Positions 38,007 to 38,290 of a DNA stretch of 64,000 bases are shown piece by piece; position 1 is the stretch's first letter; the number at the start of each line of letters is the position of its first letter. The notes beneath the pieces were generated by a model. That model saw only the letters and a list, made by a program, of their open reading frames with translations, was not told the origin of the DNA and did no database searches. Source of the DNA: Candidatus Gastranaerophilales bacterium (GTDB lineage Bacteria; Cyanobacteriota; Vampirovibrionia; Gastranaerophilales; Gastranaerophilaceae); contig CANQJT010000002.1 of the NCBI GenBank assembly GCA_947624325.1, positions 186,001 to 250,000 of the forward strand, in the 5' to 3' direction. The position numbers and the translations under genes are program-made.

Positions 38007-38102
38007 TTATAAATACCAATAACACTTATTATACCTATAACAAAACCTAATCTAAAATGAGTTTTATGAGCCCGACGAGCTACCAGACTGCTCCACCCCG
38101 CG
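38007..38102. repeat. Right direct repeat with tRNA(fMet) 5' half (attR-like)
   Basis: 38007-38084 matches the left repeat; 38064-38102 is identical to 31161-31199, the 39-nt 5' half of tRNA(fMet) from the anticodon loop to nucleotide 1. It has no 3' half and cannot make a tRNA. To its left the match with the intact tRNA ends exactly in the anticodon loop. Confidence 0.85.
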
Positions 38103-38290
38103 ATATTATTCAATTTTTTTGAGTATACCCTCGCAACCTGTACCAGGCTTACCTCTCGAAAAATGATACTTAATCATTTTTCTCGGCAGAGTACCCCGCG
38201 ATATTATTCAATTTTTTTGAGTGTACCCTCGCAGCCTGTACCAGGCTTACCTCTCGAAAAATGATACTTAATCATTTTTCTCGGCAGAGT
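38095..38290. repeat. Two tandem 98-bp units on the tRNA(fMet) 5' end
   Basis: 38095-38192 and 38193-38290 differ at two or three positions. Each begins ACCCCGCG (the tRNA 5' end reversed), then an AT-rich spacer, a hairpin AGCCTG-TAC-CAGGCT in unit 2 (one base off in unit 1), the hinge TACCTCTC, a second hairpin CGAAAAATGAT/ATCATTTTTC and the hinge CGGCAGAGT. ACCCC follows once more at 38291. The same hinges occur at tRNA(Pro). Confidence 0.85.

Follow-up and report, generated by a model that had tools for sequence, protein, structure and literature searches.

A very small hairpin module at structured-RNA genes of Gastranaerophilales, probably a mobile DNA element

Introduction

Upstream of two minus-strand tRNA genes of a Candidatus Gastranaerophilales bacterium (assembly GCA_947624325.1), tRNA-fMet and tRNA-Pro(cgg), lie two short tandem arrays, whose units have the same plan but different paired stems. 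What is the part that they share, and how did it come to stand beside both genes? The two arrays are found in a stretch of 64,000 nucleotides (contig CANQJT010000002.1, positions 186,001 to 250,000), hereafter the window, which we compared with other genomes of the order, of the phylum and beyond. Judging from these comparisons, the shared part is probably a very small mobile DNA element (a reading to which we give a probability of about 0.6), 40–48 nt long, gene-less and built around a paired but variable stem.

Results

The module within the window

TRF recovers the units of 98 bp (fMet) and 102 bp (Pro) that a first-pass annotation of the window had delimited (Table 1). On the tRNA strand, each unit contains a module that is 42 nt long in the window (ACTCTGCCGA, a stem-loop, then GAGAGGT) and 40–48 nt long across the family, without any coding capacity. 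Its two ends are ACTCTGCCGA at one side and GAGAGG(T/G/A) at the other, and the sequence of the stem-loop between them varies freely but pairs. Read on the plus strand of the window, the hinges ACCTCTC and TCGGCAGAGT are nearly invariant around the differing paired stem, which bears out the common hinges of the first-pass annotation, while TTCTCG and “CGAA”, also proposed as hinges, both belong to the variable stem. The last base of the module is mostly G at T-arm and 5S targets (GGAAT, GGAAC) and mostly T at GTAGC targets. In the 64-kb window, a covariance model recovers all four copies, with E-values no worse than 3e-10, and returns no other match below E 0.05. The module matches no Rfam 15 model (the only Rfam matches of the window are tRNAs), in line with the earlier remark that it belongs to no named family.

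Table 1. Coordinates in the window of the module copies, of the adjoining tRNA parts and of neighbouring features.
Feature	Position	Strand	Description and evidence
98-bp units, ×2.1 (fMet array)	38095–38295		TRF
Module, fMet array, copy 1	38151–38192	-	ACTCTGCCGAGAAAAATGATTAAGTATCATTTTTCGAGAGGT; covariance model R1, 54.6 bits, E 8.5e-12
Module, fMet array, copy 2	38249–38290	-	Module sequence identical to fMet copy 1; covariance model, TRF array
Intact tRNA-fMet	31123–31199	-	ARAGORN, sequence; locus uninterrupted in G178
Displaced tRNA-fMet 5' end	38193–38200	-	CGCGGGGT on the minus strand; adjoins the ACTCTGCC end of copy 1
Decayed displaced tRNA-fMet end (ACCCC)	38291–38295		Adjoins fMet copy 2
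Hairpin 1, fMet unit (AGCCTG..CAGGCT)	38233–38247; other copy ~38135–38149	none	tRNA-fMet right flank AGTCTGG and inverted copy; comparison with intact tRNA
102-bp units, ×2.2 (Pro array)	55530–55755		TRF
Module, Pro array, copy 1	55590–55631	-	ACTCTGCCGACGAGAACGATTGATAATCGTTCGAGGAGAGGT; covariance model, 48.5 bits, E 2.7e-10
Module, Pro array, copy 2	55692–55733	-	Identical to Pro copy 1; covariance model
Intact (regenerated) tRNA-Pro(cgg)	55474–55549	-	ARAGORN
Displaced copy of tRNA-Pro nt 1–20	55632–55651; second 55734–55753	-	Adjoins the ACTCTGCC end
Hairpin 1, Pro unit (GTAGCGCACC TA CGGTGCTAC)	55572–55592; second 55674–55694	none	Right flank GCACC and inverted GTAGCGCACC
Integrative element (~7 kb) within tRNA-fMet	31160–38098		att = tRNA 5' half
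att copies of this element (ATGAGCCCGACGAGCTACCA)	31160; partial ~31500; full ~38065		
Tyrosine integrase of this element	36659–37927		
Serine recombinase-like ORF of this element	35764–36672		
Displaced tRNA-Pro 5' end and hairpin-rich insert	55754–55896		ACAAATTTTGCGTAGGCTGAAGCGAAGCG...; past the Pro array
15-bp tandem repeat	38915–38983		In ORF 38854–39405 (minus strand), adjoining a MinD-like ORF

Distribution of the module

The genome of the window holds 11 copies by exact pattern and 20 by covariance model, and the exact pattern is found 884 times across 184 of the 286 genomes of the order Gastranaerophilales, with a maximum of 61 copies per genome (40 in G154 and 31 in G266). The reversed hinge pattern has 0 matches in every genome listed; set against 884 copies in 184/286 genomes, this excludes a chance origin of the pattern. 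Further copies thus exist in numbers and their stems pair, contrary to both outcomes that the first-pass annotation had named as fatal to its reading. By covariance model, copies also occur in families f6 and f7 of the order, and there are none in families f2 to f5, nor in five genomes outside the order. A phylum-wide scan gave 128 positive genomes out of 386, every one of them Gastranaerophilales, without any module in the sampled genomes of the phylum outside this order. In a scan of named genomes, the matches listed are mainly Gastranaerophilales and uncultured gut MAGs, and the few listed for other taxa look like chance. A viral home was considered and rejected: 34 IMG/VR stretches carry the hinge pattern, but on inspection nearly all are devoid of a paired interior and were taken as chance matches.

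Fold, covariation and strand

Across 117 distinct copies, the first pair of the stem is A-T in 38, G-C in 32, C-G in 27 and T-A in 2, and the mutual information at the basal pairs reaches 1.04 and 1.16 bits (null: 0.06), peaking at the exact register and dropping when the register is shifted. In an alignment of 46 sequences, 62 cells are changed on both sides (18.9 ± 4.4 in shuffles) and none of 500 shuffles reaches the covariation score, although many copies are related, so that the counts are not independent and both covariation and strand counts are inflated by kinship. These results support a module structure under selection, with conserved ends and a covarying stem. The two strands are not equivalent. 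On the tRNA-sense strand, the mismatches of the stem are purine–purine in 116 cases and pyrimidine–pyrimidine in 6, with many GA/AG pairs, and its wobbles are G.T in 23 cases and A.C in 7; moreover, the predicted folding energy is lower on this strand in 106 of the 117 copies, again with shared ancestry swelling the numbers. Given this bias in mismatches and wobbles and the better folding, the folded molecule is most likely the ACTCTGCC (tRNA-sense) strand, as RNA or as single-stranded DNA.

Filled and empty sites

Compared with empty versions of the same sites in tRNA, tmRNA and 5S genes and in dispersed repeats, the module substitutes for 5–7 nt of its target in a fixed orientation, the replaced bases being GTAGC, GCAGC, GGAGT, GAAGT, GTATT, GGAAT(C) or GCACCC, that is G-N-A-N-N save in a few ambiguous cases. 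At the 5S rRNA site, the bases replaced are GTTCC (GGAAC on the module strand), in the displaced 3' part. A single genome may even hold the same site in both states, filled and empty, as in the dispersed repeats of G088 (empty GTACAC-GGAGT-GCGAGTGG, filled GTACAC-module-AGCGAGTGG) and of G042 (site GAGTGGC-GTATT-AGACAGC). The two junctions differ in precision: the one at ACTCTGCC is exact and the one at GAGAGG(T/G/A) shifts by one or two bases.

Where the target is an RNA gene, the ACTCTGCC end adjoins a displaced gene end (nucleotides 1–8, 1–11 or 1–18/20 of the tRNA, T-arm/acceptor ends, or about 90 nt of 5S). The stretch beyond the GAGAGG end starts with a few target bases, followed by their inverted copy in the majority of tRNA cases, and then runs through a linker into the intact gene. 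The module of the Pro unit had been placed within the D-loop sequence of the tRNA, and this is where it lies, in a copy of the D-loop. Hairpin 1, by comparison, had been taken for a conserved part of the module and is not: it consists of the target stretch just beyond the insertion and an inverted copy thereof, it varies between tRNAs because the tRNAs themselves differ, and the Val units of the window's genome have none.

Genomic sites and orientation

Of 90 sampled copies, 47 have a tRNA within 300 bp (as do 7% of random positions), as expected from the tRNA-proximal placement that had been proposed for testing. On the 5' side of tRNAs, 33 copies are on the same strand and 1 is on the opposite strand; on the 3' side, 11 are on the opposite strand and 2 on the same. 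A single polarity rule, with the ACTCTGCC end against the displaced gene end and the other side toward the intact gene, holds for 44 of the 47 tRNA-proximal copies. Beyond the tRNA 5' ends at which the first-pass annotation had described it, the module also occurs at tRNA 3' ends, 5S rRNA, tmRNA and dispersed repeats; the replacement of 5–7 nt of target had likewise escaped that annotation. The genome of the window has it at nine tRNA genes (Val(gac), fMet, three Pro, Thr, two Leu and, on the 3' side, Phe), on the 3' side of 5S rRNA and at one site without any recognised RNA gene. At L186, three modules follow tmRNA in the expected orientation, starting 66 bp beyond its 3' end. Some copies without a nearby tRNA are at contig ends, adjoining displaced tRNA ends, and others sit inside dispersed palindromic repeats. 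Dispersed palindrome-rich repeats of ~200 bp starting with TGTCYGAG... have one or two fixed positions that modules occupy (L081, L093, L096, L099 and L102 in G154; L079, L094 and L097 in G042).

History of the arrays in related genomes

In the relative G178, the Pro unit and the fMet unit, the latter with one orthologous module, each occur once, against twice in the genome of the window (the Pro pair being identical), which makes the arrays of the window recent tandem duplications of insertions. Hence, the view that the units reflect a selected fold and not a random duplication holds for the fold, with its covarying stem, but not for the tandem units, each of which duplicates an insertion. 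The orthologues of tRNA-Pro and tRNA-Val differ between species of the genus, being filled in some and empty in others. At tRNA-Pro(cgg/tgg), the insertion is absent from five loci of the genus among those listed and present at L155, where the outer leader resembles its counterpart at the empty locus L152; tRNA-Val(gac), for its part, has no insertion in most species of the genus. Plain tandem duplication of upstream sequence was ruled out as the source of the units, since inner and outer leaders differ at tRNA-Val. At the same gene, the linker TTGAAAATTAAATA or a similar one is found at 8/10 filled and 0/18 empty sites (Fisher 1.4e-5), with the motif and the classes both scored by eye.

A boxA- or promoter-like TTGAAAATTAAATA immediately precedes regenerated tRNAs (L314, L299 and L312, for example), and palindromic elements of another kind, ~110 nt long, are nested within the module upstream of tRNA-Pro at four or five loci (L151, L150, L153, L154, L161). 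Past the Pro array of the window, another displaced tRNA-Pro 5' end stands beside a different hairpin-rich insert, also present in G178: a second small element that uses the same tRNA-Pro arm. The tRNA-fMet itself is ~7 kb from its array owing to a later insertion of an integrative element, the locus being uninterrupted in G178. This element encodes a tyrosine integrase and a serine recombinase-like ORF and includes a copy of its own of the region upstream of the tRNA. The possibility that the module is a scar of it was ruled out, for the fMet locus of G178 has the module without the element. A 15-bp tandem repeat lies within an ORF next to a MinD-like ORF (Table 1).

Discussion

Alternative explanations

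The dispersal of the module over many unrelated sites is well supported, and the module behaves as a mobile element and not as a leader module of tRNAs. The opposite view, that it is an immobile regulatory or processing element of the host for its stable-RNA genes (a leader attenuator, an RNase site or a tRNA 5' leader structure), accounts for the structure under selection, for the proximity of more than half of the sampled copies to tRNAs, for the shared orientation of the 5'-side copies and for the boxA- or promoter-like linker alongside. It is nevertheless unlikely: at 3' ends, 11 of 13 copies are antisense to the RNA, dispersed repeats harbour modules without RNA genes, most species of the genus do without a module at the very same tRNA-Val gene, and the module replaces target bases of a gene copy.

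A second alternative is a REP-type element moved by a RAYT (a Y1 transposase of the IS200/IS605 superfamily) that acts on single-stranded hairpins. Genes matching Y1_Tnp are present in 98/286 genomes, these genomes are richer in modules (median 2 vs 1, p = 3e-4, a weak correlation), and at 4 of 40 Y1 loci a module lies ~130–180 bp upstream of the match. However, the other 36 loci have no module within ~200 bp upstream, neither the window's genome nor G154 or G266, with their 40 and 31 copies, has any Y1_Tnp match, and, of the 12 Y1 genes examined in detail, the majority carry another REP-like hairpin, GTTGGGCATACCTGCCCAAC or a variant (GTTGGGC...GCCCAAC). Furthermore, the ends of the module bear no GTAG (or CGTC) tag, the bases beyond its end vary and a replacement of 5–7 nt does not feature in REP models, so that we also consider this explanation improbable. 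The clade has a RAYT/REP pair of its own, in which hairpins of the GTTGGGCATACCTGCCCAAC type, themselves headed by GTCG or GTAG, stand ahead of a 181-aa Y1 transposase (L106, L107, L109, L110, L113).

The fixed ends, the variable paired stem, the folding of one strand and the cassette-like tandem units are reminiscent of integrons, in which case the module would be an attC-like folded site acted upon by a tyrosine recombinase, with the tRNA units as cassettes. Tyrosine recombinases are indeed encoded in all genomes, but an integron integrase above the TIGR02249 cut-off is found in 0/286, the ends, when read directly, lack the RYYYAAC/GTTRRRY boxes of attC, target bases are replaced and no gene cassettes are seen between modules; this makes an integron-like origin very unlikely. 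Still a little less credible is a mere by-product of replication, in which slippage at tRNA genes both makes and copies the palindrome: hairpin 1 and the duplicated gene ends do resemble template switches, to which palindromes are prone, but slippage on different tRNAs cannot easily yield fixed ends common to hundreds of unrelated sites in three families. Finally, a retroelement-like spread, by reverse transcription of an RNA bearing the inserted hairpin, fits the abundance of the structured RNAs that serve as non-repeat hosts (tRNA, 5S, tmRNA), the tolerance of the folded strand for G.U and an imprecise 3' end typical of primed synthesis, but is the least probable of all, as reverse-transcriptase genes are unrelated to copy number (p = 0.95), G154 has its 40 copies without any RVT_1 match and insertions on the 3' side run antisense to the RNA. 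After testing, the RAYT, integron and reverse-transcriptase explanations are all weak.

A possible mechanism of movement

For a mobile module, we infer the following enzymology and mechanism. The module would move as a folded single strand, recognised through its shape and its fixed ends by enzymes supplied in trans. Its ACTCTGCC end would be joined precisely to one side of a break in the target and its GAGAGG end extended imprecisely, by primed synthesis, which would copy a few target bases and might snap back to form hairpin 1. Synthesis would then restart upstream on the intact sister copy, duplicating the gene end and leaving the RNA functional, and unequal recombination between duplicated gene ends would eventually yield tandem units such as those of the window. 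Such a backward switch of template onto an intact sister would explain both the duplication on the GAGAGG side and the inverted but uninterrupted target in hairpin 1. At tRNA, 5S and tmRNA, the survival of regenerating events alone can be put down to selection for RNA genes that still work; in dispersed repeats, no duplication would be needed. Two observations complicate this picture: among the Pro and Val orthologues read, no RNA-gene end is duplicated without a module, so that duplication and insertion may be one event or two, and the transposition of a bare module leaves the tRNA-Val linker TTGAAAATTAAATA unexplained.

More tentatively, and at somewhat less than even odds, an element of ~42 nt may target, as a single strand, genes for structured RNAs (tRNA D- and T-arms, tmRNA T-arm, 5S rRNA), replace 5–7 bases and couple its insertion to regeneration of the gene, thereby turning essential RNA genes into safe harbours, with a trans-acting system of an undescribed kind as the mover. 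If the mobile reading is right, the module ranks with the smallest known mobile elements and is an example of a parasite living within essential RNA genes. Thanks to its strict polarity, the replacement of 5–7 nt and the wealth of orthologous sites, filled as well as empty, the way in which gene-less mini-repeats move becomes directly testable, and the module accounts for tandem arrays of tRNA ends in Gastranaerophilales that could otherwise pass for att sites or regulatory leaders.

Comparison with known systems

As far as could be found, the choice of targets, the replacement of bases and the regeneration of RNA genes have so far gone undescribed; an open-access search for literature on such repeats in Gastranaerophilales or Melainabacteria returned nothing relevant, which is weak evidence of novelty. 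The nearest known kind, by likeness of description, are the SDR elements of Nostoc, reportedly the subject of work by Elhai et al. in 2008. Both belong to the same phylum, are gene-less and span tens of nucleotides, keep their stem by compensatory changes, occur inside minitransposons and beside themselves, and insert precisely at a short motif. By the marks of the SDR type, the module is shorter than ~50 nt, gene-less and dispersed over various contexts, with compensatory stem changes and both filled and empty sites. In contrast to SDRs, it is about twice as long, has GNANN as target with a loss of 5–7 nt, is directed at genes for tRNA, 5S and tmRNA, which are regenerated, and is found here only in Gastranaerophilales. 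As for precision, SDR5 inserts exactly into HIP1 according to PMC4390886.

REP/REPIN sequences with their RAYT (PMC3116915, PMC3733652) are likewise small extragenic palindromes with a folded strand, presumed mobile and with clustered copies, but the module differs from them by the absence of a GTAG/CGTC tag and of any dedicated transposase found, by the replacement of target bases and by its strict polarity at RNA genes. It shares with integron attC sites the conserved ends, the freely varying paired centre, the single folding strand and the cassette-like tandem units, without sharing the integron integrase, the boxes or the genes between sites. Mitochondrial double-hairpin elements, GC clusters and the palindromic elements of Rickettsia are small palindromes too, and the mitochondrial hairpins also show compensatory changes in their stems, in lineages other than that of the module; to our knowledge, regeneration of an RNA gene beside its displaced end has not been described for the mitochondrial and Rickettsia palindromes. 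It is integrative elements with att sites in tRNA genes that, like the module, displace one end of the tRNA and make the gene whole again; unlike them, the module encodes no integrase, makes do with tens of bases and also enters repeats other than tRNAs.
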